Assembly (NCBI RefSeq): GCF_000154785.2
Contig: NC_015728.1
Location: forward strand, 19,130 to 83,129
Direction: 5' to 3'
Source: Roseobacter litoralis Och 149
Lineage (GTDB): Bacteria > Pseudomonadota > Alphaproteobacteria > Rhodobacterales > Rhodobacteraceae
Length of the DNA stretch: 64,000 nt
Of this stretch, positions 7,838 to 39,728 are shown piece after piece. The position numbers and the translations under genes were made by a program. The notes beneath the pieces are model-generated. The model ran no database searches and was not told the origin of the DNA. It saw only the letters and a program-made list of their open reading frames with translations. The first letter of the stretch is position 1. Each line of letters opens with the position of its first letter.

Positions 7838-10204
7838 TCAATGGCCGTGGGCAAGCGCGGCCTTTGTCATCTGTGGACCAACCTGTTCACCGCCGGACGG
7901 CGGCGCCTTGGCCTCTTGGCTGTTAAGCAGGCGCAGGGCGTTGGCCACCACCAGCAATGACACTCCTACGTCGGCTGCAATAGCGCCCCACATCGATGCC
8001 ACTCCGAACGCAGTAGCGACGACGAAAACACCCTTGGTCGCCAAGGAAATACCGATGTTCTGATGGATAATCGACATTGTCCGGCGCGAATGACCGATCA
8101 GCCAAGGCACCTTGCCGAGGTCGTCGGTCATCAGGGCAATATCCGCCGTCTCGATTGCCGCGTCCGAACCAACAGCACCCATCGCGATGGCGTAATGCGC
8201 ACGTGCCATGGCGGGGGCGTCGTTCACCCCGTCGCCGATCATGGCCACCATGTCATGCGTTTCGACCAGTTCTTCGATGGCAGTCACCTTGTCTTCGGGC
8301 AGAAGCTCGGCGCGGACCTCGTCGATGCCGACCTCGGCGGCAACGGCGCGCGCTGTCCGCTCGTTGTCGCCCGTCAGCATGACGATGGTCTTCACGCCTT
8401 GCGCGTGGAGCCGTGCCACGATGCCCTTGGCGTCGGGGCGGATACGGTCGCGCAATTCCAGAATGCCCGTCACGCCGGTGTCGTCGCCCACGGCAACAAG
8501 GGTGCTGCCGGCGCCTTCGATGCGGTCGCGCAAATCCTTCGGAATGGCGTCGCCGAAACCCTTATCCTCGGCAAACCGGTCGGACCCTAGCCAGATCGAC
8601 CGGCCGTCTGTGCGTCCTTCAAGTCCCCTACCGGGAACGGTTCGGGTATCTTGCGCGGCGGACACATTGATCCCGTCGGCTTCTGCCCGCGCGAGAATGG
8701 CGCGCGCCAAGGGATGCGAGGAACGTGCCTCCAGTCCAGCGGCGAGGGTCATCAGATCTTGCGCCGATGCTTTGCCCAGCGGATGCACCGCCGCCACCTC
8801 GGGCTCGCCCATGGTGATCGTGCCGGTCTTGTCCATGGCCAGTGCAGTCGTCTTGCCCGGTGCCTCAACATATGCGCCGCCCTTGATCAGCACCCCGGCC
8901 CGCGCTGAGGCGGTGAGTGCAGCGACGATGGAGACCGGTGTCGAGATGACCAGAGCGCATGGGCAAGCGATCACCAGCAGCACGAGTGCATTGTAGAACC
9001 AATAATCCCAGGCCCCCCCGAAAATGAGCGGCGGCAGCAGGGCAATTGCGATGGCGAGAGCCATGACGATAGGCGTGTAGATGCGGGCGAACTTCGCCAC
9101 CCACTGCTCCACCGGCGCGCGGCGGGCATGGGCGTCACCGACCATGCGGATGATCTTGGCCAACACGGTATCCGAGGCGGCCTTCGTGGCGCGCACCGTC
9201 AGTGTGCCTTCGCCGTTGATCGTACCGGCGTAGACTTCGTCGCCCCGTTCCTTCGGGACCAGCGCACTCTCTCCGGTGATTGGCGCCTGATCGACGGCCC
9301 CTGCCCCATCGACAACCTCACCATCCAATGGGATGCGGTCGCCGCCCCGCACGATGAAACGTGCGTTGATAGCAACCGCGGAAGCCGGAACGTCCGCTTC
9401 CGTGCCGTCATCATTAAGAACTCTTGCCGTCGGCGGCGCGAGGTCGAGCAGAGCTGAAATCGCATTCCTCGCACGCCCGACGCTCCAGCTTTCGAGGAAA
9501 AGCGAGAGCGAGAAGAAGAACGCGACCGTTGCCGCCTCGAAAAATTCGCCAAGGCCAATTGCACCCGCGACTGCGACGACCATCAGCAGGTTCATGTCGG
9601 GCGACAGCCGCCGTGCGGACGACCATGCCTTGGGTGCCACGAGCCAGACACCGAACAGGATCGCAACCGCGAATAGCCCTGCCTCGACCAGTGGCATCGG
9701 CGCTTCGCCGTGCCCCGCGAAGAGGCCGAGTGCCCCCCCCATGCCGGTCTCGATGATGTGCCACAGAAATCCCGCGGCCCAGAAGCCGCCGCTCAGAATC
9801 GTGAACCATTTCTGTTTGGCGAGATACGACGCCTGATCGGCGCTGGCATTGTCCGCGTCCCACGCACGGGCCGTCATCCCCGTGCTGGCAACCAAGTCCA
9901 AGATCTGGCTGTCCGAAATCTGGTCAGCGCTTTCCAGCACGGTCATCCGACCGTTGATCACATCAAAAGCCAAGTGCTCTGCCCCGCCGAGTTTCGGGCC
10001 GACGACTTTGGAAAGGATAGAGACCTCTTCGACGCAGTCGAGGCCGCTCACCTGAAAGCTTCGGCCATGCTCGGGCGGCGTTGAAGGGATTACGCCCCCA
10101 GATCCCGTGCCGCCACCGCAGCAGGTTGCCTCACCAGACTCATGCGTTGGATGGTCGTATGCGTGAGAGACGTCGTGTTGCTCGGTCTCGGAATTTGCCG
10201 CCAT
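7838..10204 (-). CDS. Zn/Cd/Pb-type P1B ATPase (ZntA/CadA-like)
   Basis: This 788-residue heavy-metal pump has a His/Cys-rich N-terminus (CCGGG near residue 28), then a degenerate HMA-like domain with GLDCVEE in place of the usual CxxC. The membrane motif is CPC (C414-C416), the phosphorylation site DKTGT (D458), and hinge motifs TGDNERTARA and GDGVNDAPA are present. A degenerate GLDC-E domain plus the final helix KGVFVVATAFGVASMWGAIAADVG is typical of the Zn/Cd/Pb group rather than the Cu group. The promoter upstream fits a MerR-family regulator, but no zntR/cadR gene is adjacent. An L,D-transpeptidase follows. Confidence 0.93.
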   Translation of the reverse strand: MAANSETEQHDVSHAYDHPTHESGEATCCGGGTGSGGVIPSTPPEHGRSFQVSGLDCVEEVSILSKVVGPKLGGAEHLAFDVINGRMTVLESADQISDSQILDLVASTGMTARAWDADNASADQASYLAKQKWFTILSGGFWAAGFLWHIIETGMGGALGLFAGHGEAPMPLVEAGLFAVAILFGVWLVAPKAWSSARRLSPDMNLLMVVAVAGAIGLGEFFEAATVAFFFSLSLFLESWSVGRARNAISALLDLAPPTARVLNDDGTEADVPASAVAINARFIVRGGDRIPLDGEVVDGAGAVDQAPITGESALVPKERGDEVYAGTINGEGTLTVRATKAASDTVLAKIIRMVGDAHARRAPVEQWVAKFARIYTPIVMALAIAIALLPPLIFGGAWDYWFYNALVLLVIACPCALVISTPVSIVAALTASARAGVLIKGGAYVEAPGKTTALAMDKTGTITMGEPEVAAVHPLGKASAQDLMTLAAGLEARSSHPLARAILARAEADGINVSAAQDTRTVPGRGLEGRTDGRSIWLGSDRFAEDKGFGDAIPKDLRDRIEGAGSTLVAVGDDTGVTGILELRDRIRPDAKGIVARLHAQGVKTIVMLTGDNERTARAVAAEVGIDEVRAELLPEDKVTAIEELVETHDMVAMIGDGVNDAPAMARAHYAIAMGAVGSDAAIETADIALMTDDLGKVPWLIGHSRRTMSIIHQNIGISLATKGVFVVATAFGVASMWGAIAADVGVSLLVVANALRLLNSQEAKAPPSGGEQVGPQMTKAALAHGH

Positions 10205-11522: not shown

Positions 11523-12038
11523 TCACAACGGTTCCTGTTGCGCGATTTTGGGTTGCGTGAATGAATGCTTGTAAGCGGCGTAGGCCCAAACCACTGCAAG
11601 CATAAGACTAAGCACGGCGTTCCAACTCGCCATAGACAGGCTGAGGAACTCCCAGGCGACTTCGTCGCACATGACCAAGGCCGATGCTGTGGATGATGCA
11701 GAGGGCAGAAGGTCCGCAGCTGACAAGTTTGACATATCAAGACCAGAGCCTGTGCAAGATGTCGGACCTTCCCACCAACCTCGTTCGACGCCGGTATGAA
11801 ACATCCCGATGCCTGCTGTCACGGACGCAGCGACAGCGCCTGCCATCAGTAGCAGTAAGATGGGCAAACCAACCATGAGGAGCGCGCCAATAGCGATGGC
11901 GATCGCGTGAGGGTATCGCTGCCAAATGCACATCGCGCATGGTGCGTAGCCCGCTGCCTGAAACAAGAAGGCAGCCAGCAAAAGAACGGCCGATCCGCCG
12001 GCAGCGATCAAACCAAGTTGTTTCGAAGACAGCGGCAT
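11523..12038 (-). CDS. dsbB: Disulfide bond formation protein B (second copy)
   Basis: This 171-residue four-helix membrane protein has CAMC (C34, C37) after the first helix and a second loop with SCTG and MCDEV cysteines, the DsbB pattern. The second periplasmic loop is longer than in the copy at 402-824, and that loop and the C-terminal helix differ, so the genes are not recent duplicates. It lies downstream of cusF behind a strong hairpin. It probably recharges one of the DsbA-like proteins under copper stress. Confidence 0.9.
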   Translation of the reverse strand: MPLSSKQLGLIAAGGSAVLLLAAFLFQAAGYAPCAMCIWQRYPHAIAIAIGALLMVGLPILLLLMAGAVAASVTAGIGMFHTGVERGWWEGPTSCTGSGLDMSNLSAADLLPSASSTASALVMCDEVAWEFLSLSMASWNAVLSLMLAVVWAYAAYKHSFTQPKIAQQEPL

Positions 12039-12139: not shown

Positions 12140-12481
12140 TCAGTTCGGCATTATGGCCCCGATTGCGTACATGCCATCCTCGCCCTTGACGAGCATCAGG
12201 GTCACCTCGTCACCATCGGTCACCTCTCCCATCATCTGCGCGTTTTCCAGAACCGTCATATCCATCGTCATTGCAGGCCAGCCGATCTCGGGAATCGGGT
12301 CATGGCTCACATTTGCAGTGCCGTCGCCGATCGAATTGATCACGGCCTTCGCGTGAACTGCGCCCTCCATTTGTTCGGCGGACATCGGCATGTCCGAATG
12401 ATCCATATTGTGGTTCATTTGTGCGATAGCCCCTGTCGCGGACAGGGTCAGAAGTGCGAGACTTGCAGTCAGTATCTTCAT
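12140..12481 (-). CDS. cusF: CusF-like periplasmic copper-binding protein
   Basis: This 113-residue protein has a signal peptide ending near TGAIAQ. The Met/His-rich segment MNHNMDHSDMPMS is followed by one CusF fold with HDPIPEIGWPAMTMDM, which supplies the His, Trp and two Met that bind Cu(I)/Ag(I) in CusF. It delivers copper to the CusCBA pump. The ATG at 12481 starts the signal peptide; a codon four residues upstream is also possible. It lies 33 nt downstream of cusA, the usual neighbour, although cusB here carries its own CusF modules. Confidence 0.9.
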   Translation of the reverse strand: MKILTASLALLTLSATGAIAQMNHNMDHSDMPMSAEQMEGAVHAKAVINSIGDGTANVSHDPIPEIGWPAMTMDMTVLENAQMMGEVTDGDEVTLMLVKGEDGMYAIGAIMPN

Positions 12482-12514
12482 GAGAAGCTCCATTCTTGAG
12501 GTTTGTGCGTTCGA

Positions 12515-15500
12515 TTATTCGGCAGGCAGTGCTGCATCGACGGGCTGCTGAATTGGGGACGTGATTTCGCGGTTTACGCGTTTCAGCGCGAGCCGTTTCC
12601 AAATCACGAATGTGGAAGGAATGACAAAAAGCGTCAGCAGGGTCGCTGTCACCATACCGCCGATCATCGGTGCAGCGATGCGTTGCATGATCTCCGAGCC
12701 AGTGCCGGTGCCATACATGATCGGTATCAGCGCCGCGAAGATGGTGGCCACGGTCATGACTTTGGGTCTCACCCGAAGAACAGCTCCCTCAAAGACGGCC
12801 TCCTCGATATCGTCTTGTGTCAGCTTGCGGCCTTCGGATTGACCGAGTTTGCGTCGCTTTTCCCAGGCGAGATTGAGATAAAGCAGCATGACGATGGCTG
12901 TTTCGACGGCCACGCCGGCCAGGGCAATGAAGCCGACGAGGACGGCGATCGAAATGTCGAAGCTGAGATACCACAGAAACCAGACACCGCCTGCCAACGC
13001 GACAGGAAGCGCGGCGAGAATGATGCCAACTTCGATCACCCTATTGAACGCCATGAACAACATCAGCGTGATGATCATAAGCGTGGCGGGGGCGACGATC
13101 GCCAGCCGGTCCTGCATCCGCTCGATGTACTCATACTGCCCGGACCATGTCAGAGAATATCCGGGCGGCAGGCGCACCTGATCGGCCACGACCCTCTGCG
13201 CCTCGGCGACATATCCGCCGAGGTCTCGTCCTGCGATATCGATAAACACGAACCCCGTGCGCCGAGCGTTCTCTGATCGGATCATGCCCGGACCATCTAC
13301 AATTCGGACATCGGCCAAGGCGGTCAGCGGCACATGAGCCCCCGATGGGGTGACAACGGGCAAGTTTTCGAGGCGTTCGGGGCTGTCGCGCCACGCCTGC
13401 GGATAGCGCAGGTTAATCGGAAAGCGCTCCAGCCCTTCAACGGATTCCGATACCTGCATCCCACCGATGGCGGTTTGCACCACATCCTGAACATCCCGCA
13501 CGCTCATCATGTATCGCGCTGCGGCGTCGCGCTTGACGTCGATTTCTATGAAGCGCCCGCCTACCGGGCGCTCCGCATAGGCGGAGGCAGTTCCCTCGAT
13601 ATCCGACACGGCTCGTTCCACTTCGATCCCGATGTCTGTGATGACGTTCAGATCAGCACCCGAGATCTTGACACCAACCGGCGTTCGTATCCCGGTGGCA
13701 AGCATGTCGATCCGGTTCTTGATCGGCTGGATCCAGACATTGGTCACGCCTGGAATCTGCACAGTCCGATCAAGCTCATCGCGAATTTTTCCCATGGTCA
13801 TGCCAGGGCGCCACTCAGCTTCTGGTTTGAGTTGGATCGTAGTTTCCACCATCGTGAGTGGTGCAGGATCGGTCGCTGTCTCTGCGCGCCCCACTTTGCC
13901 GTGCACAGTTTCAACCTCTGGGATTGTAGCGATCAGACGATTGGTCTGCTGCAGGACCTCGCGCGCCTTACCGATCGACACTCCCGGGTAGAAGCTTGGC
14001 ATATAGAGGAAGTCGCCCTCATTCAGCTCGGGCATGAACTCGGACCCGAGCCGTTGGTACGGATACCACATTGAAGCCACGAGGGCGCCGGCAAGCAAGG
14101 TTGTCGCCCACGGCCAAGCGATGGCTGCATCCAGAAAGGGACGATACAGGAAGACCACCAATCGGTTCAGTGGGTTTTTGCGCTCGGGCAAAATCCGGCC
14201 CCGGACAAAGTATCCCATCAAGACCGGAACCAGTGTGATTGATAGGATCGCGGCGGCGGCCATCGCATAGGTCTTTGTATAGGCCAGCGGGGCAAAAAGC
14301 CTGCCCTCCTGATTTTCCAGCACAAAGACAGGCAGAAAGCTGACCGTGATGATTGCCAAGGAGTAAAAGAGGGCCGGACCGACCTCAGAGGCGCATTCCT
14401 GCACGATCCTCCACCTGTTTTCTGCGGTCAGCTTTTCCTTCTCCAGCCGCCTGTGCATCGCCTCGATCATCACGATCGACGCATCGACCATGGCCCCAAT
14501 GGCAATCGCGATGCCACCAAGCGACATGATGTTCGCATTCACACCCTGCGCTTTCATCAGAATGAAGGCAGCGAAGATGCCGAGGGGCAACGACAGCAGG
14601 ATCACCAGTGATGAGCGCAGATGCAGCAGAAAGGCCGCACAGACGAGGACGACGACAACGAATTCCTGAGTCAGCTTCTTCTTGAGATTGTCGATTGCGC
14701 GTTCGATCACGCCGGACCGGTCATAGGTCGTGATAATCTCGACACCTTCCGGCAGGTTCGGCCGCAACTCTTCGATGCGGGCCTCCACCGCTTTGATGGT
14801 CGCAAGGGCATTGCCACCCCATCGCATGATGACCACGCCGCCAACGGCATCGCCCTGCCCGTCAAACTCTCCGACTCCGCGGCGCAATTCCGGTCCTAGG
14901 CGAATGTCAGCAACGTCGCCGAGGGTCAGAGCGGCTCCACGCTCGTTGATCATTAGGGGGGCGCTGGATAGATCAGAAAGCTCATCGATGTATCCGGACG
15001 AGCGGATCATGAATTCTGCTTCGCCCATCTCGATCACGCTTCCGCCGGTCTCTCGATTGGCCGCCTGTATCGCGTTCCTGAGTTGTGTCAGTGTGATATC
15101 GTAGGCCCGCAATTTGTTCGGATCGACGACGACCTGATACTGTTTGACCATGCCGCCAATCGTTGCGACTTCAGACACACCGTCGACAGCCTGCAGTTCG
15201 TATTTCAGAAACCAGTCCTGCAGCGTTCTCAGTTGCGCGAGATCGTGTGTGCCGGTTCTGTCGATCAACGCATATTGGTAGATCCATCCGACCCCGGTGG
15301 CATCCGGGCCAAGCTGAGGGGACACTCCGTCCGGCAGGCTCCCGGTGATCTGCCCAAGATATTCGAGGACGCGGGATCTTGCCCAATACAGGTCCGTGCC
15401 ATCTTCGAAAACGACATAGACAAAACTGTCACCAAAGAAGGAAAAGCCGCGTACATCCTGTGCGCCAGGTACCGCCAGCAACGATGTGGCGAGCGGATAA

Positions 15501-15697
15501 GTGATCTGGTTTTCGACCACTTGCGGCGCCTGCCCCGGATAAGGGGTGCGGACGATCACCTGCACATCGGACAGGTCCGGTATCGCATCGACCGGTGTCT
15601 CGCGGATGGCCCAGATGCCTGCGACACCCATCATGACGGCAAGGACCAGAATAACAAACCTATTGGCCAGCGAGGCGCGGATGATCGCCGGGATCAC
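12515..15697 (-). CDS. cusA: CusA/CzcA-type RND heavy-metal efflux pump
   Basis: This 1060-residue pump has the RND layout: two sets of membrane helices and two large periplasmic loops. The proton-relay motif GAMVDASIVMIEA is present. Of the three Met that line the E. coli CusA copper path, two are recognisable (APLTMVET and NRIDMLATG); the first position reads YPGVS, with Val where E. coli has Met as I recall it. The motifs otherwise favour the monovalent Cu/Ag branch, and the neighbours (CusB, CusF) agree. The start overlaps the cusB stop by 4 nt. Confidence 0.94.
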   Translation of the reverse strand: MIPAIIRASLANRFVILVLAVMMGVAGIWAIRETPVDAIPDLSDVQVIVRTPYPGQAPQVVENQITYPLATSLLAVPGAQDVRGFSFFGDSFVYVVFEDGTDLYWARSRVLEYLGQITGSLPDGVSPQLGPDATGVGWIYQYALIDRTGTHDLAQLRTLQDWFLKYELQAVDGVSEVATIGGMVKQYQVVVDPNKLRAYDITLTQLRNAIQAANRETGGSVIEMGEAEFMIRSSGYIDELSDLSSAPLMINERGAALTLGDVADIRLGPELRRGVGEFDGQGDAVGGVVIMRWGGNALATIKAVEARIEELRPNLPEGVEIITTYDRSGVIERAIDNLKKKLTQEFVVVVLVCAAFLLHLRSSLVILLSLPLGIFAAFILMKAQGVNANIMSLGGIAIAIGAMVDASIVMIEAMHRRLEKEKLTAENRWRIVQECASEVGPALFYSLAIITVSFLPVFVLENQEGRLFAPLAYTKTYAMAAAAILSITLVPVLMGYFVRGRILPERKNPLNRLVVFLYRPFLDAAIAWPWATTLLAGALVASMWYPYQRLGSEFMPELNEGDFLYMPSFYPGVSIGKAREVLQQTNRLIATIPEVETVHGKVGRAETATDPAPLTMVETTIQLKPEAEWRPGMTMGKIRDELDRTVQIPGVTNVWIQPIKNRIDMLATGIRTPVGVKISGADLNVITDIGIEVERAVSDIEGTASAYAERPVGGRFIEIDVKRDAAARYMMSVRDVQDVVQTAIGGMQVSESVEGLERFPINLRYPQAWRDSPERLENLPVVTPSGAHVPLTALADVRIVDGPGMIRSENARRTGFVFIDIAGRDLGGYVAEAQRVVADQVRLPPGYSLTWSGQYEYIERMQDRLAIVAPATLMIITLMLFMAFNRVIEVGIILAALPVALAGGVWFLWYLSFDISIAVLVGFIALAGVAVETAIVMLLYLNLAWEKRRKLGQSEGRKLTQDDIEEAVFEGAVLRVRPKVMTVATIFAALIPIMYGTGTGSEIMQRIAAPMIGGMVTATLLTLFVIPSTFVIWKRLALKRVNREITSPIQQPVDAALPAE

Positions 15698-18117
15698 TGG
15701 GTAACCCTCCCGTCACGGACAACATCGATCAATGTCATCGAGAAATCCGGGTTGCGCCGCAGGATGAGCGTGACGTCCGTTCCCACTGTGAGTTGGGAAA
15801 TCTCGAGTTCCTCAGCCAAGGGAAAATCCATTGTCATTCCGGGCATGCCGATATCGGTCATCGGCCCATGGGTGATGTTCGCCGTCCGTGATTGAGCATC
15901 GATGGAGTTGATTTGACCTGAAACCTGCATGGGCGGTGCCACAGGTTCGGCCGCCGCCAGCACCATATTCATGCCGTCCGGGCGCGCGAAAGTGAGCACC
16001 ATCTCCACATCTGTCATCAAAGCGGCAGCGTCGAGTGACGGATCAATATCAAAGGCCATGGTCATGCCAGGCATGCCGATATCGGTCATCGGTCCATGGG
16101 TGATCGTGGCCTTTGAGGCGTTTGTATCGACACTATCGATCGTGCCTGAGACCACGATGGGCGGTGCCGCAGCTGCCTCAAGCTCGACATCAGACAAGAT
16201 CATGTTTAAGCCATCCGGCCGTGCAAATGTGAGGGTCATTTGGACGCCGGTTTTCAGCGATGCCATGTCCAAGCCCGGATCGATAGGGAAATCCATGGTC
16301 ATGCCTGGCATTCCGATCTCAGCCATGGGCCCGTGGGTGATCGTTGCGGTTTCGGAATTCAGATCCAGGTCGTCGATGGTGCCGGACACCATGATCGGCG
16401 CTGCGGCATTTGTTTCAGCCGCTTCCACCTCTTCGGGATCGGTGCCCTCGGCGCGGACCGCGACTACGGAGAAAAGGCCGCCATCACCTGCCGTGAGATC
16501 GAATTCGATCGGCGCATCGAGAGGCACGGCCTCAAGATCAACCCCCAACACCGGCAGGTCCATCGTCATTGCGGGCCAGCCAAGCTCTGGGATCGGGCCA
16601 TGCTCCAGCGTTAGCTTGCCATCCGACGTCACCGCGCGTGCAATCCCAGTGCCGGTACCGGCAATTCCATCATCTGGCGCAAGTTCGGTGAGGCTCAGGA
16701 GTCCATCTGCGCCACGGGCCACGAGAAACGCGACTGCCTCCCCCTCCTTTAGCCGATCCAGGGGAACATCGGCTCTCACCGGGAAGTCGGATGTCATCGC
16801 TGGCCAGTCCAGGCTTTCCAGGGCGTCATGCTGCACGGTTGCCACCCGACTCTGTGGATCGAGAGCAACGAGAACACCGCTGCCCCGCGCCGGGTCGGCA
16901 TCCGTTGGCGCCATGCGCGTGAAGCCTGCGCTCAAAGCGCTTTCGCTGTCGATCAGGAACTGTGCGGAGGCAACGACCTCTTCACCCGGACCCAGGCCCT
17001 GAAGAATTTCTGTCCGCCCGCCTTCTCCGAAACTGTCCCGGAGACCGGCAGTCACCAATCTCGGTCGGAAGGTCCCCTCCCCTGTTTTCAGGATGACGCG
17101 CTCAGCCGACCCTGTGCGTATTACGGCCTCAGATGGCACTGTCAGGACCGTCCGGCTTTCGTTGGGTGTGAGACTGACACTTCCGAACATTCCGGGGCGG
17201 AGCACGCCATCGGAATTGTCAAACCTCAGTCGAACAGGAAGCGTTCGTGTTTGGGGATCGAGTTCGGGATAGATGTAGTCGATGTCGCCTTCAAACACGC
17301 GCCCTGGCAAGTGTTCGAACCGAGCGATGGCCCGCATATCCTCAGACAGCCGGGCAATATCACGTTCAAAGACATCTACAATGAGCCAGACCTTCGACAA
17401 GTCAGCGACGGAGAAGGCAAGCGTTCCAGGTTGCAGATACATGCCATCGGCCGCATTCAGGGCGATGACCACGCCGTTCTGTGGTGCTTCGATCTCGATG
17501 TTGCGAACCATTTCGCCGCCCGCCTCGATCTCCGCAATCTGGCGGGCGGACATGCCATGGCTCATCAGCTTGCTGCGCGCCGCATCCAGAATGCGGGGGT
17601 CACCAGCCTCGACTGCGCGCACAAGGTCCCCGGTCGCCGTCGCGATGAGCGGCGAAAAAAGCTCAAAAAGTACCTGTTCTTGGCTGACCCGATCGCCGAC
17701 TGCTCGTACTTCGAGCTTCTCGATCCATCCCTCAGCTCGCGTATGCACATGACTGGTCAGATGCTCGTCATACCCCACGAAACCCACAGTCTCGATCTGG
17801 GGTCGCACTTCACTCATGCGGGCGACCGCCGTGCGTACGCCGATTGCGTTGATTTCGGCCGCGTTCAGTGTGACCTCGGCAGGATCACCAGATGGCTCCT
17901 GTCCGGCATAGACGGGAATAAGATCCATCCCCATGGGCGACTTGCCGGGTCCTGGTTGACGGAAATTCGGATCCATGGGCGCAACCCAATAGAGAACCTC
18001 GGGGCCTTCAGATCCGCCTTGCACTGCTGGATTCAGGTACAACCGCTCAACGTAAACCCCACCACCAAGGCCGGCTGCCAAGGCAAGAACTGAAAGTGCC
18101 GCGTATCTTCCACGCAT
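15694..18117 (-). CDS. cusB: CusB-type adaptor with five C-terminal CusF-like modules
   Basis: At 807 residues this is about twice the normal CusB length. It has an N-terminal anchor, a heavy-metal-binding segment (residues 43-70, APMDPNF...PMGMDLIPVY), the adaptor barrel and hairpin (about 75-400), then five consecutive CusF folds with cores at residues 438, 514, 603, 682 and 758. Modules 1-2 keep Trp (WPAMTSD, WPAMTMD). Modules 3-5 have Met instead (MPGMTMD or MPGMTMA), and module 1 lacks the second Met. The adaptor joins CusA to an outer-membrane channel. Fusion of one CusF is known; five in tandem is not something I recall. Confidence 0.93.
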   Translation of the reverse strand: MRGRYAALSVLALAAGLGGGVYVERLYLNPAVQGGSEGPEVLYWVAPMDPNFRQPGPGKSPMGMDLIPVYAGQEPSGDPAEVTLNAAEINAIGVRTAVARMSEVRPQIETVGFVGYDEHLTSHVHTRAEGWIEKLEVRAVGDRVSQEQVLFELFSPLIATATGDLVRAVEAGDPRILDAARSKLMSHGMSARQIAEIEAGGEMVRNIEIEAPQNGVVIALNAADGMYLQPGTLAFSVADLSKVWLIVDVFERDIARLSEDMRAIARFEHLPGRVFEGDIDYIYPELDPQTRTLPVRLRFDNSDGVLRPGMFGSVSLTPNESRTVLTVPSEAVIRTGSAERVILKTGEGTFRPRLVTAGLRDSFGEGGRTEILQGLGPGEEVVASAQFLIDSESALSAGFTRMAPTDADPARGSGVLVALDPQSRVATVQHDALESLDWPAMTSDFPVRADVPLDRLKEGEAVAFLVARGADGLLSLTELAPDDGIAGTGTGIARAVTSDGKLTLEHGPIPELGWPAMTMDLPVLGVDLEAVPLDAPIEFDLTAGDGGLFSVVAVRAEGTDPEEVEAAETNAAAPIMVSGTIDDLDLNSETATITHGPMAEIGMPGMTMDFPIDPGLDMASLKTGVQMTLTFARPDGLNMILSDVELEAAAAPPIVVSGTIDSVDTNASKATITHGPMTDIGMPGMTMAFDIDPSLDAAALMTDVEMVLTFARPDGMNMVLAAAEPVAPPMQVSGQINSIDAQSRTANITHGPMTDIGMPGMTMDFPLAEELEISQLTVGTDVTLILRRNPDFSMTLIDVVRDGRVTQ
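15718..16392 (-). repeat. Three near-identical CusF-module repeats within cusB
   Basis: Modules 3, 4 and 5 of the cusB gene repeat every 76-79 codons and share long stretches at the DNA level around 15840, 16070 and 16305 (ATGCCGATATCGGTCATCGG in two of them). Modules 1 and 2, further upstream in the gene, are much more diverged. This indicates recent tandem duplication of the last modules. Confidence 0.8.
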
Positions 18118-18194: not shown

Positions 18195-18587
18195 TCAGGA
18201 GTGTCGGGGCGGGCGATCGGGCACGAGGGGCTCACGGGATACATGAGCCCTGAAAAATCCGACCCGTGTTGGCGCTGTAAAAGCGGTTTCTTCAGACCGA
18301 TGATCTAGATGTTGCTGGTAGTCCATGACACAGCAAAGACCGTTGTGACACCCGTCGCCGTGTCCTGCGTGAGCGTCCGCTTGCCGCTCGCCATTGTTTT
18401 CGGGGTGGTGCGCGTGGACGTGGTTGGGCACTTCTCCCGCAGAAGCGACAGCGGGGATTTGCGGACCGCACTCCGCGCTGCTCATCTCTCCTTCAAACGG
18501 CATTGCCTGCGTTCCGACGACGGTAATCGTCAGACACACAAAGGCAAGACATGCCGATCGCAGGAAAGAGAACGCATTCCAAACCAT
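18195..18587 (-). CDS. Secreted His/Cys-rich leader-gene protein of the cus operon
   Basis: From the ATG at 18587 this 130-residue protein has a clear signal peptide (FLRSACLAFVCLTITVVGTQA). A His-rich stretch (HVHAHHPENNGE, DAHAGHGDGCHNGLCCVMD) with a Cys cluster follows. An upstream in-frame ATG at 18650 exists, but it lies inside a shared regulatory repeat (18643-18657), so transcription should begin downstream of it. I do not recognise the family. It is probably a periplasmic copper-binding protein or copper-responsive leader gene. A similar gene at 40023-40427 precedes the TolC/multicopper oxidase cluster. Confidence 0.68.
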   Translation of the reverse strand: MVWNAFSFLRSACLAFVCLTITVVGTQAMPFEGEMSSAECGPQIPAVASAGEVPNHVHAHHPENNGERQADAHAGHGDGCHNGLCCVMDYQQHLDHRSEETAFTAPTRVGFFRAHVSREPLVPDRPPRHS

Positions 18588-18642
18588 ACGCGTGAAGTAG
18601 CGCTCTTCAGAAGTTGCAGCAATTGAAGCGGGGCTGAAAGAT

Positions 18643-18657
18643 TGTATCATTTTGTAA
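18643..18657. promoter_or_regulatory. TGTAT-N5-TGTAA direct repeat (candidate response-regulator box)
   Basis: TGTAT CATTT TGTAA lies between the cus leader gene (minus) and the dsbA-like gene (plus). The same 15-bp layout is present at 40476-40490, 47355-47369 and 53944-53958. Direct half-sites in a 10-bp phase are typical of OmpR-family response regulators, one of which is encoded at 55434-56165. Confidence 0.6.
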
Positions 18658-18721
18658 AGTTGACCTTTTCCAAGTTGTGCCAGTACGACTCCAACGGTGG
18701 CATAATCAGATCAGGCGTCAG

Positions 18722-19504
18722 ATGGATTCCAAGAAACGATCAACACTCTTGACGATCGGTGCGGTCATTGCAGGCTATGCGGCGCTTCGAACCGTGCCCT
18801 CTTTGCTGCCGGAAAAACTTGAACTTGAAGCACTCGATCGTCCGAAAGGCTTCCGGAGATTTATCGCTGGTGAGACATCCGGATCGTTTGACGCGTTCGT
18901 CGGCTTGGACAGTCCGGACAGTGTGGATGTGGCAGCACGGAAGGCGGCGGCTATCGAGCGAGTCTCAGCAGATATTTGCGGCGCTCTCTACGGAGACCTC
19001 GACATGAGCAATGCACGTATCCCTCTGGCATCATTTTCTGACTATTATTGTCCTTTTTGCAGAGTACAAACCAAGAGCTTCGCCGATATGACAAGCAAAA
19101 TGCCAGATCAGGTTGCAATAGCATGGCACGAGCTTCCTCTGCTGGGCGACAGCTCTAATCTGGCAGCAAAGGCGGCCTTGGCCGCCAAGCGTCAAGGTGC
19201 CTACGTCGCATTCCAGGAACGTTTGATGACCTCGCCATTTCAAGCCACACCGGAATACCTTGCCCGTCTCTCTGAAGATCTGGGCGTTGATGGCGAACAA
19301 TTGGTCGCTGACATGGAGAGCCCCGAAGTCGCGCGCGAGCTGGAAAATAGCGCGGCTCTCGCGCAGGTTTTTGCCTTTGTTGGCACGCCTGCCCTCGTCA
19401 TCGGTCGTACAGTTGTCCAAGGTCAGGTCAGCGACAGAATGATACGAAAGATCATTGACCTTGAGCGTGAGGAGGGCTGGGACCTTGCCTGTGTGTCGGC
19501 CTGA
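18722..19504 (+). CDS. DsbA-family thiol:disulfide oxidoreductase
   Basis: This 260-residue protein has an N-terminal membrane segment (about residues 7-24), a roughly 70-residue linker region and a DsbA fold with CPFC (C110, C113) in FSDYYCPFCRVQ. The cis-Pro loop is FVGTPALVIG. The ATG at 18722 is preferred to 18677 because the longer form puts a basic, non-signal stretch ahead of the anchor. It is followed by a rhodanese and a ScsB/DsbD protein, a set that resembles the Scs copper-sensitivity suppressor system. It is divergent from the cus operon. Confidence 0.88.
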   Translation: MDSKKRSTLLTIGAVIAGYAALRTVPSLLPEKLELEALDRPKGFRRFIAGETSGSFDAFVGLDSPDSVDVAARKAAAIERVSADICGALYGDLDMSNARIPLASFSDYYCPFCRVQTKSFADMTSKMPDQVAIAWHELPLLGDSSNLAAKAALAAKRQGAYVAFQERLMTSPFQATPEYLARLSEDLGVDGEQLVADMESPEVARELENSAALAQVFAFVGTPALVIGRTVVQGQVSDRMIRKIIDLEREEGWDLACVSA

Positions 19505-19563
19505 CAAACCTATGCTGTCTGCTGTTCTCTCCGCCTTACTCTTCTATCGAAATTGGAGACGGA

Positions 19564-20019
19564 ATGGATAGACGGCACTTCATCCTACTAGCTTCTGCGT
19601 TGGTCATGGTCCCCTATTCTGTGACGGCCGCCACGCGCAAAGTCTGGTCAGCCGTCGAAGCCTCGGCCGCGTTGGCGCAGGGCGAGATTTCTCTGATTGA
19701 TATTCGTTCACGCGTTGAGTGGAGGGACACAGCCGTGGCGAAAGACGCCTGGCCGATCAGTATGCATGAACCGAGGTTTGAGCAGAGGTTGTTCGCTGCA
19801 CGCGATCTGTCTGGCGAAAAACCAATCGCCTTGATCTGTGCCACCGGAGGGCGGAGTGGCCGTCTCTTGAGCGCTCTAAATCGAGCGGGATACCCGGGCT
19901 TCATCGATGTCTCAGAAGGCATGTTGGGATCACTGAAAGGGCCAGGCTGGATCGCACACGGTTTGCCTGTGATGGATCTGGAGGCGGCCTTGGCCAATCT
20001 GCCGGACGTTCTCCGTTGA
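19564..20019 (+). CDS. Exported rhodanese-domain protein
   Basis: This 151-residue protein has an N-terminal signal (RRHFILLASALVMVPYSVTAA) and a single rhodanese domain with active loop CATGGR. Rhodaneses transfer sulfane sulfur. A periplasmic one beside DsbA- and DsbD-type proteins could handle oxidised thiols or persulfides made by copper. There are 59 nt to the gene before and 16 nt to the ScsB/DsbD gene after, so it is probably part of one operon. The substrate is unknown. Confidence 0.85.
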   Translation: MDRRHFILLASALVMVPYSVTAATRKVWSAVEASAALAQGEISLIDIRSRVEWRDTAVAKDAWPISMHEPRFEQRLFAARDLSGEKPIALICATGGRSGRLLSALNRAGYPGFIDVSEGMLGSLKGPGWIAHGLPVMDLEAALANLPDVLR

Positions 20020-20035
20020 TCGTGGGTCCGCGTCC

Positions 20036-22150
20036 ATGAAGGGAGCGGTTTCTCAAATCTGGGCTGGGTTGCTGTCGATTGTTTTGGGTTGCGTAATCAT
20101 CCTTGCCGCCGCTGGCGCCGATGCCGCGGAATCCGAGTCTGTTTCAAATCCTGCGGTCACGGCACGTCTGATCTCGGCCGAAAACGGGATTGCGCCGGAT
20201 GCCGCCTCCGTTTCCCTTGGATTGGCCTTGGAGTACGGCGAGGGCTGGAAAGGATACTGGCGTACGCCCGGCGAGGTTGGCTTGGCACCCGAGATCAACT
20301 GGTCGGGTTCAACCAATCTGAAATCCGCCGAGCTCCTCTGGCCCGCGCCGGAACGGTTCGAGGCCTTCGGGATCGAGAACTTCGGCTATTCAGGTCAGGT
20401 TGTCTTGCCGATCCGCGCGAGACTTGAGGACGCCGGCCAGCCTCTGGAACTGCGTGCCCGCGTGTCCTTGCTGACATGTTCGACTGTCTGTGTGCCCCAT
20501 GACTTCGAACTTTCACTCGCCCTGCCACAAGGCGTCGGGATCGATACAAACTCGGCTCGCCAGATTGCCACTTATGCCGATCGCGTTCCCGCGGTACCCG
20601 AGAACAGCGACATCAGAATATCGGTCACGGCCCTCGATGCGCGCGACTCGGCTCTCATCGTTGTGGCAACGAGCGACACACCGTTCGATGAGGTCGACGT
20701 GTTCCCGGAATTCGGACCCCTTGTGACCTTTGGCAAACCAGATATCCGATTGGATCGGGATAGAACGGAACTCTGGGCACAAATACCGATCAACGCCTGG
20801 ACCGAAGAGCACGCAGAGCCTTCGGTGACGATCGCAGACACCGCACGTGCAATCACGGCGCCGATCACGCTTACCTCAGATCCCCCTGCCCCACCGTTTT
20901 CAAGCGCAAACCCTCGAACGAGTCTGCTGAAGGTCGTGGCGGTGGCCGCCATCGCCTTTCTCGGTGGTCTGATCCTCAATGTCATGCCCTGCGTGTTACC
21001 CGTTCTATCGATCAAGCTCACATCTGTTTTGAAGGCAACCGGTCAAACCCGGCAGATGACGCGCAACGGATTCCTGTTTTCAGCTTTGGGGGTACTGGCT
21101 TTTGTCTGGGCGCTTGCGGCTGTTTTGCTGTTTCTCCAATGGATCGGTGTATCCGTCGGCTGGGGCATGCAGTTCCAAAACCCGGTCTTCGTGACGCTGA
21201 TGTTCATGGTCATCACTGTCTTTGCGGCCAATCTCTTTGGGGCATTCGAGATAACCCTGCCCGCGGCCCTTCAAGACCGCCTGGGTGCCAGCAATGCCAG
21301 AGCCGGGTACATCTCAGACTTTGGCACCGGATTGCTTGCGGCCATCCTCGCTACACCGTGTTCCGCCCCGTTCCTCGGCACCGCGATCACCTTTGCGCTC
21401 GCTGGTACATCACTGGACGTGATAGTGATATTCACGGCACTCGGTCTTGGACTGGCCCTCCCCTACCTCGTCATTGCCGCACGTCCCGAGTTGGTCACGC
21501 GACTGCCCCGGCCCGGGCGATGGATGCTTCTGGTCAGGATCCTTCTTGGCGGTCTGTTGCTGGCAACGGCCGCATGGCTCTTGTTCGTTCTTGTCGGCGT
21601 GGCGGGTGGGCGGGCAGCTGCCTTTATCACGTCACTCACAGCTGTGTTCATCGTCGCCGCATCAATCCCACAGGCAAACCAATGGGTACGGCGTGCGGTT
21701 CTCAGCGCCTGTGTTTTTCTGGCGATTTTCGGGGCAGGTCTCACCTCAACCCCTGACCGCACCACTCCGGGGGTTGATGCGACGTCCCATTGGCAGGATT
21801 TCGAACCCCTCGGCATCGCGCGCCGCGTCTCTGAAGGCGAGACGGTGTTCGTCGATGTGACCGCGGATTGGTGTCTGACCTGCAAAGCCAACAAGTCTCT
21901 CGTGCTTGACAGGGATCCAGTGCGTGCGCGGTTGCGCGGCGGTTCCGTGATCGCCATGCAGGCGGATTGGACCCGCCCGGATGACAACATAGCGCGGTTT
22001 CTCGAGCGATATGACCGCTACGGCATTCCGTTCAATATCGTCTTCGGGCCAGGGTCGCCTTCCGGCATCGCTCTCCCGGAGATTCTAACGCCACAGGCAG
22101 TGCTCGACGCGCTCGACACCGCTTCTGTGCGCAGTCTCGTGTCAGAGTGA
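20036..22150 (+). CDS. ScsB/DsbD-type thiol:disulfide interchange protein
   Basis: This 704-residue protein has a signal peptide, a large periplasmic N-terminal domain with the pair CSTVC, eight or so membrane helices (about 300-560; LNVMPCVLPVLSIK and ATPCSAPFLG carry the electron-relay cysteines) and a C-terminal thioredoxin domain with WCLTC (C613, C616). DsbD proteins carry electrons from cytoplasmic thioredoxin to periplasmic partners. The long N-terminal region resembles ScsB, which protects against copper. Its likely partners are the DsbA-like proteins at 18722 and 49014. Confidence 0.91.
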   Translation: MKGAVSQIWAGLLSIVLGCVIILAAAGADAAESESVSNPAVTARLISAENGIAPDAASVSLGLALEYGEGWKGYWRTPGEVGLAPEINWSGSTNLKSAELLWPAPERFEAFGIENFGYSGQVVLPIRARLEDAGQPLELRARVSLLTCSTVCVPHDFELSLALPQGVGIDTNSARQIATYADRVPAVPENSDIRISVTALDARDSALIVVATSDTPFDEVDVFPEFGPLVTFGKPDIRLDRDRTELWAQIPINAWTEEHAEPSVTIADTARAITAPITLTSDPPAPPFSSANPRTSLLKVVAVAAIAFLGGLILNVMPCVLPVLSIKLTSVLKATGQTRQMTRNGFLFSALGVLAFVWALAAVLLFLQWIGVSVGWGMQFQNPVFVTLMFMVITVFAANLFGAFEITLPAALQDRLGASNARAGYISDFGTGLLAAILATPCSAPFLGTAITFALAGTSLDVIVIFTALGLGLALPYLVIAARPELVTRLPRPGRWMLLVRILLGGLLLATAAWLLFVLVGVAGGRAAAFITSLTAVFIVAASIPQANQWVRRAVLSACVFLAIFGAGLTSTPDRTTPGVDATSHWQDFEPLGIARRVSEGETVFVDVTADWCLTCKANKSLVLDRDPVRARLRGGSVIAMQADWTRPDDNIARFLERYDRYGIPFNIVFGPGSPSGIALPEILTPQAVLDALDTASVRSLVSE

Positions 22151-24729: not shown

Positions 24730-27114
24730 TCAGATTTTCGCGCCGCGCAGCCGCAAAGCGTTCAGAACCACAGAGATGGACGAGGCGCTCATCGCGAAGG
24801 CGGCGAACATCGGGCTGATCAGGATGCCAAGGAAGGGAAACAGTACGCCCGCAGCAACCGGCACGCCCGAAGCATTGTAGATCAGTGCAAAGAACAGGTT
24901 CTGTCGGATGTTGCGCATCGTAGCGCGCGATAGACGCCGAGCGCGCACGATCCCGTCAAGGTTGCCTTTGATCAGCGTGAAGCCCGCGCTTTCGATAGCG
25001 ACATCCGCACCGGTGCCCATGGCGATGCCGACATCCGCCTGCGCTAACGCGGGCGCATCGTTGACGCCGTCGCCCGCCATGGCGACCTTGCGACCGGCTT
25101 CCTGCAACTCGCGGATGATCCGTGCCTTGTCCTCAGGCAGAACATCGGCGCGGATCTCGTCGATTCTCAGCCGTGCGCCAATGGCCTTTGCGGTGAGTTC
25201 GTTGTCACCTGTGGCCATGATGATCCGAAAGCCCAGATCATGCAGCGCCTTTAGCGCAGCTGGCGTCGTTTCCTTCACCGGGTCGGCGACGCTGACCAGC
25301 CCGGCAATCGTGCCTTCCAGTACGACAAACATCACCGTTTCGCCTTCGTCACGCCGCGCGTTAGCCTTTGCGGTCAGCGCACCGGCCTCTAGACCCATAT
25401 CCGAAATCAATGCGAGATTTCCCAGAGCCACCGCGTGGCCGTCGACCACACCCTTGACGCCCTTGCCGGTCACCGCCTCGAAATCGCTGGCGTTCGCCAT
25501 ATCCACGCCGCGGTCTTCAGCACCACGCACGATGGCTTCGGCCAGCGGATGTTCCGATCCGCGTTCCAGCGAAGCGGCCAGTCGCAGCACCTCGGCCTCG
25601 TCATGCCCCGGTTCGGGCAGGACTGCGATCAGCCGGGGCTTGCCTTCTGTGAGAGTGCCGGTCTTGTCTACGATTAGAGTGTCTACCTTCTCGAACCGCT
25701 CCAGCGCCTCGGCGTTCTTGATCAGAACGCCCGCCTGGGCACCGCGCCCTGTGGCCGTCATGATCGACATTGGCGTCGCCAGACCCAGCGCGCAGGGACA
25801 GGCGATGATGAGGACCGCCACTGCAGAGATGAGGGCATAAGAAAGGGCGGGCGCTGGTCCCCAGATCGCCCACGCGATGAACGACAAGATGGCGACCACA
25901 ATCACTACAGGCACGAAGAACCCCGCGACTTTGTCGGCGTATTTCTGGATCGGCGCGCGCGACCGCTGGGCATTCGCCACCATTTCGACAATCTGCGCCA
26001 GCATCGTGTCGGCTCCTACTCTCGTCGCCTCCATCACCAGGCTGCCGGTGCCGTTGATCGTAGCCCCCGTCAGCACGTCACCTTCGGTTTTCTCGACCGG
26101 AACCGGCTCCCCCGAAATCATGCTTTCATCCACCGAAGAGCGTCCATCGACCACGGTGCCATCGACCGGTACCTTATCACCGGGACGAACACGTAGATGG
26201 TCACCGACTTCCACCTCTTCCAGCGGAATTTCCTCTTCGCTCCCGTCTTCGCGGATCACGCGCGCAGTCTTGGCTGCCATGTCCAGCAGCGCGCGGATCG
26301 CTTTGCCGGTGCCTTCACGGGCGCGCAATTCCATCACCTGCCCTAACAGGACAAGGGTAACGATCACCGCCGCAGCTTCAAAATAGACGCCAACATGGCC
26401 TTCGGGATCGCGGAAGCCATCGGGAAAGATGTCAGGTGCAAGAACGGCCACGATGCTGAAAAGCCAGGCCGCCATCACGCCCATGCTTATGAGCGAAAAC
26501 ATATTGAGGTTCATCGTCCGGAATGAATTCCAGCCGCGCACCATGAACGGCCAGCCGCTCCAGAGGACGACGGGTGTGCCCAGTACAAGTTCGATCCACA
26601 AGGTCGTGCGTTCGCCGAATATGTCGCGGACGCCCCCAAAACCTAGATAAGGGCCCATCGTCAGAACCAGTAGCGGCAGGGTCAGCACTGCGCCGACCCA
26701 AAACCGGCGCGTAAAATCCACCAGCTCGTGGTTCGGTCCGTCCTCGACCATCGTGGCGCTTTCGAGCTCCAGCCCCATGCCGCAGATTGGACAGGATCCC
26801 GGATCGGTCTTGCGGACTTCGGCATGCATTGGACAGGTGTAGACTGCGCCTTGGTAACCGGCGGGCACGGTGTCGTATCTGCCTCCCTTTTCACCAGTCG
26901 TGGTGGCGGAATGCCCATGGGCGTGGTGGCCGTGCCCGTCCGCGGCACCGTGTCCGGCGTGATCATGTTGTGGAGCCGCAACCTCGCCTTCAGGCACAAG
27001 ATGCATGCCGCATTTCGGGCAATCTCCAGGTTCGGTCTTGCGCACTTCGTGATGCATCGGACAAGTATAGATCACACTCTCTTGCGTCGGGTCAGGATTG
27101 GGTCTTTGGTTCAT
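24730..27114 (-). CDS. copA: Copper-type P1B ATPase with two N-terminal heavy-metal-binding domains
   Basis: This 794-residue pump starts with two short zinc-ribbon-like metal-binding domains ([20 protein letters not shown] and [20 protein letters not shown]) separated by a His-rich linker ([16 protein letters not shown]). The membrane site is CPC (C439-C441), the phosphorylation site DKTGT (D483), and the hinge is GDGVNDAPA. The final helices ([30 protein letters not shown]) are those of Cu(I) exporters. It lacks the HMA domains found in the other CopA at 44704. A CueR-type promoter lies 168 nt upstream. Confidence 0.94.
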
Positions 27115-36851: not shown

Positions 36852-36895
36852 TTGATTTCCTATGGTTTTGGGTGGGTCGAACTTGAAGAGGCTAG

Positions 36896-38267: not shown

Positions 38268-39728
38268 TCAGTGTCCTGGGCCGCCGCCGGCGGCTACGGC
38301 TGCGCCCTCACCATCGCCACCACCGGCGACGCCACCGCCGTAGATCGCGGCTGTAATGTTGGCTTGGGCAATGTAGAAGTCGCGCTTCGCGTTAGCTGCT
38401 TCCAATGAAGCTGCCAGTTTTTGACGGACGTCCGTCAACAATTCAAACGTGTTGGTAATCATGCCGTTGTAGGAAAGAAGGCCTTCCTCCTCGACCGTCG
38501 CGCGCAACGGAACCAAAACGTCCCGATAGTGCCGTGCGATCTTGTATGAGGAGTGATAAGCGACTTCCGCGCTTCTGGCCTCGGACCGGACATTCACCGC
38601 CCTTTCGGCCAGAACATTGGCCGCCTGAAGGTACATCAGTTCAGCCTTGCGCATGCGTGCCTTGCCAGTGTCGTAGATGGGGATCGCGAATTCGACCTCA
38701 AGTTGCGGCAGGGTTTCGGTTTCCGTATTGCCATCCTCGCGCTCACGTTCCGATTCGACACCGGCGACAAGCTCTAGATCGCTAACGATGCGGGTTTGGT
38801 CCGTCAGTTCGAAAGCTCTCGCCTGTGCTTCCAAGCCGAGTTTTGCCACGCGAAGATCGACGCGGTTGGCCAGCGCTTTTTGTTCGATGCTTGTCACTCG
38901 CCCGACGGATCCAGGCAAAGCGGGCAAGGCATCCGGAACATAGTAATTAACATCGCTGCCCCAGAGTCCCATCAGCCGGGTCAGCCGCTCTTTGGCGAGA
39001 GTTGCGTTCAGACGCGCCTTCGCCAGTTGGCCGGCGAGTTCGGCGTTGAATGCCTGCTCCCTTGCCTGCCCTGCTTTGTTCAACGCGCCGGTCTCGCCCA
39101 GACGCAGAGCAAGCTCGGACCCCGCATCCGATGTGGCCTTTGCCTTCTTGAGGTAATCTGCTGTCTCAAAAGCGGCGACAGCTTCGATCCACGCCATACG
39201 CGTTTCATTGGCCAGCGCCAGCGTGTCGCTGACCGCTTCCAGCTGAGCACCCTGAAAGTTGGCATCTGCGATCGCGATACGCTGCTTGCGGGTTGTCGCG
39301 TCCAGAATGTTGGTCCGGATCAGCCCCTCGATGGACCGGTAGACTCCCAATTCCGGTGCGCCGATCCCGATCAGCCCGATGGAGATGACCGGGTTTTCAG
39401 GTGTTGCCTGCTGCCAGGCTTCCGCCGCTGACAATCCTACATTTGCATAGGCAGCCTGCAACCCTTTGTTGTTCAAAAGCGCGACCTGAACCGCGGTTTC
39501 CGCAGAAATGGTTTTTCCGTGAATCATGGATCTGACTTCTTTGGTCAACGCCACGTTCTCGGCTTGTGTCTGCGCGAAAGCAGTCCGTTTGCCAAGAGCA
39601 GCAGAAGTCTGGTTGGAAACGTTAAGGAAACCTGCTTTCGGCTCGGTATAGGCACTGGGTACGGCTGTTGCGCAGGCACCTAGTAGCAAAGGAAATCCAA
39701 ATATTACGGGAAGTTTTGAGACGCGCAT
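38268..39728 (-). CDS. TolC-family outer-membrane efflux lipoprotein
   Basis: This 486-residue protein has a lipoprotein signal (LLLGACATA) and the two TolC repeats rich in coiled helices (AWIEAVAAFETADYLKKA; AEVAYHSSYKIARHY). The tail is Gly-rich. It is the only outer-membrane channel in the window and so is the likely exit duct for the CusBA pump, although it is encoded 20 kb away beside the multicopper oxidase. Its start shares a base with the stop of the small lipoprotein gene. Confidence 0.9.
   Translation of the reverse strand: MRVSKLPVIFGFPLLLGACATAVPSAYTEPKAGFLNVSNQTSAALGKRTAFAQTQAENVALTKEVRSMIHGKTISAETAVQVALLNNKGLQAAYANVGLSAAEAWQQATPENPVISIGLIGIGAPELGVYRSIEGLIRTNILDATTRKQRIAIADANFQGAQLEAVSDTLALANETRMAWIEAVAAFETADYLKKAKATSDAGSELALRLGETGALNKAGQAREQAFNAELAGQLAKARLNATLAKERLTRLMGLWGSDVNYYVPDALPALPGSVGRVTSIEQKALANRVDLRVAKLGLEAQARAFELTDQTRIVSDLELVAGVESEREREDGNTETETLPQLEVEFAIPIYDTGKARMRKAELMYLQAANVLAERAVNVRSEARSAEVAYHSSYKIARHYRDVLVPLRATVEEEGLLSYNGMITNTFELLTDVRQKLAASLEAANAKRDFYIAQANITAAIYGGGVAGGGDGEGAAVAAGGGPGH

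Follow-up and report, generated by a model that had tools for sequence, protein, structure and literature searches.

The 807-residue protein is confirmed as a CusB adaptor core followed by five CusF domains. These modules are not simple repeats: three ligand types follow each other along the array, a non-equivalence that had been overlooked, and their fixed order suggests a built-in graded relay or reservoir. With a probability of about 0.4, we propose that the protein is the adaptor in an efflux system of CusCBA type for Cu(I)/Ag(I) and that its fused, ordered copper-handling tail feeds the pump down affinity steps. Trp44, Met44 and one-Met versions of the CusF site occur in one protein, in conserved order and beside a pump.

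Adaptor and modules

The features located in the window, a stretch of 64,000 nucleotides from Roseobacter litoralis Och 149, are compiled in Table 1. The adaptor gene starts with ATG at 18117 and stops at 15694. A Pfam search gave five matching stretches to PF11604 (CusF_Ec) in the adaptor, with a whole-protein E-value of 2.7e-77. The single modules scored 63.9, 62, 57.9, 51.4 and 47.3 bits in the genome profile search, all above the cut-off of 27 bits for PF11604. The first-pass annotation had described a CusB adaptor with five CusF folds; the profile search found these five, not fewer than four, and the core motifs at residues 438, 514, 603, 682 and 758 were exactly as described. A low-complexity or chance source of the modules is ruled out by the profile scores and a shuffle control, in which 1 of 2000 shuffles of residues 408-807 matched the in-house CusF profile at E < 0.001 per sequence. 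An assembly or sequencing artefact is likewise ruled out, as near-identical genes occur elsewhere, on plasmids of D. shibae as well as in further genomes.

Table 1. Features of the adaptor gene and its partner genes (window coordinates)
Feature	Position	Strand	Basis
CusB-type RND periplasmic adaptor, 5 C-terminal CusF modules, 807 aa	15694..18117	-	profile matches
N-terminal heavy-metal-binding segment, residues 43-69, CusB Met triad M48/M62/M64	17911..17991	-	PF19335
Adaptor core, HlyD_D23 barrel-sandwich, residues 104-311	17185..17808	-	PF16576, E 9.3e-70
CusF module 1, residues 410-479: H430, W438, M441, S443; second Met ligand absent	16681..16890	-	
CusF module 2, residues 488-555: H506, W514, M517, M519; canonical ligands	16453..16656	-	
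Ala/Glu-rich linker, 19 residues (556-574), Trp-type pair to Met-type block	16396..16452	-	
CusF module 3, residues 575-644: H595, M603, M606, M608; Met for Trp44	16186..16395	-	
CusF module 4, residues 654-723: H674, M682, M685, M687	15949..16158	-	
CusF module 5, residues 730-799: H750, M758, M761, M763	15721..15930	-	
CusA-type RND pump, GTG start	12515..15697	-	profile and alignment
Stand-alone cusF, 117 aa, canonical His-Trp-Met-Met	12140..12493	-	profile match
Outer-membrane efflux protein (OEP), candidate CusC	38268..39728	-	putative partner

Residues 30-407 align with the solved E. coli CusB (E-value 3e-42), whose chain ends where the CusF tail of this adaptor starts. M48, M62 and M64 align with the Met triad of E. 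coli CusB and are unchanged across a 78-row adaptor alignment. With 169.1 bits the protein scores below the 390-bit cut-off of the NCBIfam CusB subfamily.

The canonical H36/W44/M47/M49 set is present in module 2 only; modules 1, 3, 4 and 5 are variant sites. Along the array the ligands are His-Trp-Met-Ser in module 1, His-Trp-Met-Met in module 2 and His-Met-Met-Met in modules 3-5, where Met stands at the position of the capping Trp44. The linker between modules 2 and 3 is the longest of the array, and in array proteins the median linkers comprise 7 residues (modules 1-2), 22 residues (modules 2-3) and 6 residues thereafter. Modules 3 and 4 of this adaptor are 67% identical, and module 4 is probably a duplicate of module 3. 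Charge gave no explanation of the module roles, module 2, the Met-type modules and free CusF being similarly acidic. Module 1 is less acidic than these.

Partner genes and plasmid setting

The adaptor gene is overlapped by cusA by 4 bases. M566, M616 and M665 of the pump match M573, M623 and M672 of E. coli CusA. The separate cusF, annotated at first as adjoining the adaptor gene, is present in the same gene run, but cusA intervenes, the gene order being cusB-cusA-cusF. Of 60 array loci with sufficient flanking sequence, 57 retained a separate single-domain CusF. Therefore, the array is an addition to the chaperone, and a substitution of free CusF is ruled out for most loci. An OEP/CusC match adjoining cusBAF was not found; one OEP gene of this plasmid is located some 20 kb away from the adaptor gene, and further OEP genes are located on contig C3. 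By its gene set, the adaptor gene is very probably RLO149_p830440 of the R. litoralis plasmid pRLO149_83. This gene has been listed as CusB-like, with the CusF modules unmentioned in the covered parts of that publication (PMC3141670).

Ligand order in relatives

Ligands were counted in 121 proteins, i.e. this adaptor and 120 relatives listed out of 542 matches found. Several entries of this set are near-copies. Among these matches and our own protein, 120 of 121 showed two Trp modules followed by two or three Met modules. Module 1 had H36 and W44 in all 121 and M47 in 119; its position 49 was occupied by Ser (106) or Thr (15) and never by Met. Module 2 was His-Trp-Met-Met and the last module His-Met-Met-Met throughout (121/121 each). 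The inner Met-type modules had H36 and M44 in 157 of 158 cases each, and M47 as well as M49 in all 158. Module 1, module 2 and the Met-type modules shared a mean identity of 24-28% with one another, compared with 63-72% for the equivalent module across proteins. Since module 1 is orthologous between proteins, conservation of the ligand order in part reflects shared descent.

One set of 80 loci (the best 80 of the matches listed) was found by a Met-type motif and is therefore uninformative on Met44, in contrast to two genome samples not selected for such motifs. In these two samples, all 11 arrays had the Trp, Trp, Met order and all 11 single-module adaptors were Trp-type, 2 of the latter being cut by a stretch or contig end. 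One listed place (G062:C34) was left out of these samples, and L169 and L181, which lacked a match to the in-house profile, were not counted. The same Trp/Met order was found in 25 further array proteins, in two of which module 1 also lacked Met47.

Proposed mechanism

Direct observations are the succession of domains, the ligands specific to each position together with their conservation, and the intactness of the Met triads in both CusB and CusA. We infer an affinity order of the modules, a direction of flow and threshold behavior. A pair of Trp-capped modules is placed beside the adaptor, and a linker that is longer and probably flexible separates this pair from the two or three Met-capped modules. 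In the proposed system, the distal His-Met-Met-Met modules would be the tightest periplasmic Cu(I)/Ag(I) holders, serving as a pump-tethered reservoir, and the canonical module 2 would swap metal both with this reservoir and with free CusF. Module 1, retaining a single Met ligand, would be a weak, transfer-ready site sharing its ion with the adaptor triad M48/M62/M64, from which CusA would take it. The last step would be irreversible owing to the proton-driven CusA. If affinity falls toward the pump, the reservoir would fill first and the pump would be fed upon spill-over. Metal movement from tight to weak sites requires either saturation or an input of energy, which the model assumes.

That tight distal sites would supply weaker ones close to the pump is proposed because replacement of Trp by Met raises the Cu(I) affinity of CusF; in the same source the exact function of the Trp is called 'not entirely clear' (PMC7558416). 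According to a counter-view, the pi-cation contact of the Trp is credited for CusF binding Cu(I) tighter than SilF (PMC10656224). A transfer intermediate between CusF and CusB is consistent with the proposed transfer-ready site, and another model of the intermediate, in which CusF contributes His and Met and CusB one Met, counts against it (both PMC6235853). That Met-rich sites are prone to oxidation speaks against a Met-type reservoir (PMC9302797). On duplicate CuCl2 plates, 0.04 mM Cu inhibited R. litoralis OCh149 and R. denitrificans grew at 0.1 mM, a comparison between species, not with a knockout; the R. denitrificans genome was reported to lack several metal genes of the R. litoralis plasmid (PMC3141670). 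The lower copper tolerance of R. litoralis speaks against a plain copper-resistance role.

The earlier suggestion that the array stores or feeds several ions is plausible. It is a rather doubtful further possibility that the tail constitutes a genetically encoded affinity ladder, in which one polypeptide has natural counterparts of three CusF site states in fixed order toward the pump: a one-Met transfer-like site, a Trp-capped site and a Met-capped tight site. If so, six adaptors per pump, the number given for E. coli (PMC7558416), would tether 30 copper sites to it, and pumping would begin only once the distal reservoir had filled. Module 1 would then represent a CusF domain that evolution has fixed permanently as a transfer intermediate. 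The array makes both the role of Trp44 and metal flow along affinity steps testable by module swaps and deletions.

Comparison with known systems

The E. coli CusCFBA system shares the adaptor core, the N-terminal Met triad, the CusA triad and a separate His-Trp-Met-Met CusF. The adaptor described here differs from E. coli CusB by five fused CusF domains, four of which have non-canonical ligands; to our knowledge, E. coli CusB is devoid of a CusF domain. As indicated in the first-pass annotation, single fusions are known. SilB of Cupriavidus metallidurans CH34 is an HME-RND adaptor that carries a CusF-like metallochaperone domain at its C-terminus (PMC4446572), and in 22 gammaproteobacterial organisms a single gene encodes CusB and CusF as a fusion (PMC3548706). 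SilB carries a single domain rather than the 4-5 of the arrays and lacks an ordered ligand series; its layout of exactly one C-terminal CusF domain is not that of our protein with five. The proteobacterial CusB-CusF fusions have one or two modules, again in contrast to five.

Human ATP7B resembles the adaptor in its tethered array of copper domains (six) on a pump and in their position-dependent roles (PMC11970713). Loading of the array, instead of delivery, could turn the pump on, as proposed for the terminal metal-binding domains of copper P-type ATPases; we consider this quite unlikely. Of the ATP7B domains, the first three were reported to be autoinhibitory and only the core-proximal one to be capable of delivery to a protein from which all six are missing; a sensor role was proposed for the N-terminal domain of SilB (PMC11970713). 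The length of the linker that separates modules 2 and 3 would also permit such switching. However, the argument draws an analogy between unrelated protein families, not homology: the ATP7B metal-binding domains have an unrelated fold and Cys ligands and are cytosolic, and the pump is ATP-driven.

Distribution and evolution of the arrays

A minority of genomes carry an array, namely 10 of the 149 sampled from the family, our own included. Yet this large architecture occurs in many genera of Rhodobacterales and their relatives, and is also plasmid-borne. Among the 120 of 542 matches listed plus our own protein, 84 had four and 37 had five modules. Five modules as a peculiarity of this strain are thus ruled out, other five-module proteins occurring among relatives, with four being more common. 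Multi-module CusF arrays on adaptors were undescribed in the portions of the literature that the search covered, in contrast to single fusions.

On an adaptor tree of 172 rows, from which arrays of fewer than 4 modules, proteins shorter than 650 aa and identical rows were dropped, the four/five state requires 20 changes, 12 of these being forced by well supported branches. This indicates that the length of the Met block changed repeatedly. Modules 3 and 4 were mutually 63-90% identical in 32 of the 37 five-module proteins among the matches listed and our own; therefore, duplicates seem to be easily made. Both observations would fit a mostly neutral expansion, in which unequal recombination lets the module number drift and a fifth module brings no gain over four. 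This has little probability in our view, as ligands are near-invariant in every copy, no array of at least 6 modules occurred in either list of 120 proteins, among the matches listed, and none with an additional Trp-type module was seen among the array proteins compared.

Single-module adaptors also occurred in the genome samples and two-module adaptors outside the alphaproteobacteria, the second module of the latter being degenerate in 11 of 15 in a hand-picked set. Just one of the sampled one- and two-module adaptors (L106) had a Met44 module. Outside adaptors, Met44 was found in alphaproteobacteria in 26 of 41 CusF domains from 40 small ORFs and in 12 of 20 CusF domains of other non-adaptor ORFs. 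Met44 as an invention of arrays alone is thus ruled out, and since it is common outside pumps, it need not be an adaptation to this pump. The array might act as a sponge only, a tethered metal sink shielding the periplasm with no ordered transfer and with free CusF delivering as in E. coli. The frequency of Met44 in non-pump proteins is consistent with a holding role, and the labile Met-block length and the retention of free CusF also speak for a sponge. We regard this as rather unlikely: it leaves unexplained the ligand pattern of module 1 as well as the proximal position of the Trp-type pair in every complete adaptor array seen.

A domain tree was built from 68 columns, omitting columns 44 and 49, without L182 and three domains with unclear ligands (L163, L164, L166); many of its forks are unresolved. 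An origin of the Met modules of arrays from a free Met-type lineage was unsupported. They cluster with the family's CusF genes of Trp type (support 85), which suggests that Trp was replaced by Met separately in the arrays. Module 2 clusters with Trp modules fused to adaptors (support 87). Module 1 falls on the side with most free Met-type domains, contrary to a neat scheme. A search for stand-alone relatives of the Met-type module returned 13 short proteins; with 5 of them named membrane fusion protein, these are probably array fragments.

Conserved order of ligand types

The adaptor with a CusF array is a real and conserved variant of the known pump adaptor. What matters most is that three ligand types follow one another in a conserved order; the module count of five is less important. 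E. coli CusF holds Cu(I) by His36, Met47 and Met49 with Trp44 as a cap (PMC9302797). Residues aligned to positions 36, 44, 47 and 49 are HWMS, HWMM, HMMM, HMMM and HMMM in modules 1 (adaptor-proximal) to 5. Ligands were counted in the adaptor under study and in 120 relatives among the matches listed, out of 542 found, which are mutually related and include several near-copies of one another. Across these 121 proteins, His and Trp of module 1 are invariant, Met47 is present in 119, and position 49 is Ser (106) or Thr (15). Module 2 is HWMM and the last module HMMM in 121 of 121, and 157 of the 158 inner Met-type modules carry Met44. Written as residue 44 of successive modules, the types among these 121 listed proteins are WWMM (84), WWMMM (36) and WWMTM (1). 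A second search supplied, among the matches listed, at least 25 further proteins with the same Trp/Met order; seven of 25 have five modules, and in two module 1 also lacks Met47. Complete adaptor arrays keep a Trp block of two modules, followed by a Met block of two or three. Exceptions are one protein in which a single module has Thr as residue 44, a three-module protein from a Roseobacter MAG (L067) and a protein split into two frames (L068).

The adaptor gene and its neighbours

Profile matches and alignment to E. coli CusB place the CusB-type adaptor part at residues 30-407. The first-pass annotation had proposed five CusF modules on this adaptor, and a profile search found all five at residues 410-799. 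It had also placed a separate cusF gene nearby; this gene is present, but the pump gene sits between it and the adaptor gene. All three Met residues that form this site in E. coli CusA are retained by the pump (M566, M616, M665), and the adaptor has its N-terminal Met triad (M48, M62, M64), so Cu(I)/Ag(I) would be the expected cargo. CusB-like, CusA and CusF genes of plasmid pRLO149_83 of R. litoralis OCh149 are listed in PMC3141670, whose available portion leaves the domains unmentioned.

Thiol-redox genes flank the cus genes on both sides, and a comparable set also adjoins those of D. shibae pDFL36-06. In the gap corresponding to the 151-aa ORF that plasmid has an annotated hypothetical protein on the strand opposite the adaptor, so either strand may be the coding one.

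Features of the cus region and other metal-related genes in the window
Feature	Position	Strand	Remark
P-type metal ATPase	7838-10204
ORF after stand-alone cusF	11523-12038		thiol-redox; slot annotated disulfide bond formation protein B on D. shibae plasmid with same gene order
Stand-alone cusF	12140-12493	minus	after pump gene
CusA-type pump gene	12515-15697	minus	four-base overlap with adaptor gene
CusB-type adaptor, five CusF domains, 807 residues	15694-18117	minus	ORF translation, profile matches
151-aa His/Cys-bearing ORF	18195-18650	minus	upstream of adaptor gene; no match in Pfam search
Further thiol-redox genes	18677-22150		with 11523-12038: DsbB-like, DsbA-like, rhodanese, DsbD-like
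P-type metal ATPase	24730-27114
Cupredoxin-like protein	36138-37106	minus	C-terminal CusF domain, Met44 type, motif MPAMTM
Multicopper oxidase	36896-38254		near cupredoxin-like/CusF gene
OEP outer-membrane protein	38268-39728		near cupredoxin-like/CusF gene
P-type metal ATPase	44704-47214
Multicopper oxidase	50226-51677
Sensor kinase	53983-55437

Sampling independent of the Met-type motif

The named comparison loci cannot test Met44 because they were retrieved with the Met-type motif. The Pfam CusF profile was searched against a family sample (149 genomes) and a class sample (385 genomes), and all places except one were read back. Besides the window's own, 82 ORFs were recovered. Of these, 11 were single-module adaptors, all Trp; nine adaptors had four modules and two had five, each beginning with two Trp modules and continuing with Met. 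Forty small ORFs supplied 41 domains, of which 26 were Met, nine Trp and two Leu, while four had no aligned His. The remaining 20 ORFs gave 12 Met and 8 Trp. Thus, Met44 CusF domains are common in the class, single modules fused to the pump adaptor are Trp, and arrays join both kinds. Arrays occurred in 10/149 genomes of the family and 3/385 of the class sample, own included. A phylum sample of 150 genomes contained 16 ORFs of at least 500 aa with CusF matches: two matches in five, four in two, five in one (the adaptor under study) and one in eight, of which that of genome G176 (623 aa) is a non-adaptor and the others were checked for adaptor status in part. All four- and five-match ORFs were alphaproteobacterial.

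Growth of the array

Mean identity between module 1, module 2 and the Met type is 24-28%; the same module is 63-72% identical across different proteins. Because the third and fourth modules of a five-module protein on average both resemble module 3 of four-module proteins, the five-module form of the window would most simply result from duplication of module 3. Three relatives (P0064, P0093, P0107) do not match this pattern. On an adaptor tree of 172 rows, switching between four and five modules needs 20 changes, 12 of them forced by well supported branches, a count that recombination between tail and adaptor may inflate.

Possible function of the array

According to a review, replacement of Trp44 by Met raises the affinity of CusF for Cu(I) (PMC7558416). 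From this effect and a likeness to the transfer intermediate, the distal modules may be tight sites, the middle module a canonical site and the proximal module a weak site resembling the donor half of that intermediate. Among the 121 listed proteins the median linker between modules 2 and 3 is 22 residues, versus 7 and 6 for the others; the longer linker could allow free movement of the distal block. Direction of metal flow, affinities and threshold are inferred.

Some published results count against this reading. CusF binds Cu(I) more tightly than SilF does, and the Trp contact has been given as the reason (PMC10656224), which is hard to square with the review. Copper at 0.04 mM inhibited R. 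litoralis, whereas growth of R. denitrificans was seen at 0.1 mM (PMC3141670), in a comparison between species on duplicate CuCl2 plates. The authors suggest other cations, and in their table the system is assigned to silver under aerobic and to copper under anaerobic conditions.

Related architectures

Single CusB-CusF fusions are known (PMC4446572, PMC3548706), as the first-pass annotation had stated. Among the papers and passages listed from the mostly open-access literature searched, no description of tandem CusF domains on an adaptor was found, and the array adaptor is apparently undescribed.

Three gammaproteobacterial MAG ORFs (L081 3320-4678, L082 3-1196, L083 2073-3614) contain three tandem Met44 CusF domains; an adaptor match was looked for in them and none was found, which makes them array-only relatives. 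A 1084-aa ORF of Mangrovicoccus ximenensis (L079 3484-6735) has a weak CopC match followed by three CusF domains, one of the Trp type and two of the Met type, again with no adaptor match found. Two-module CusB adaptors outside the alphaproteobacteria (L087-L089, L092, L095-L098, L102-L104) have a canonical first CusF and a ligand-depleted second (RRAM or HWGx). Among the single-module adaptors compared, only L106 (577-2136, minus strand) carries a Met44 CusF. With three P-type metal ATPases, multicopper oxidases and a sensor kinase, a large share of this part of the plasmid resembles a metal island.
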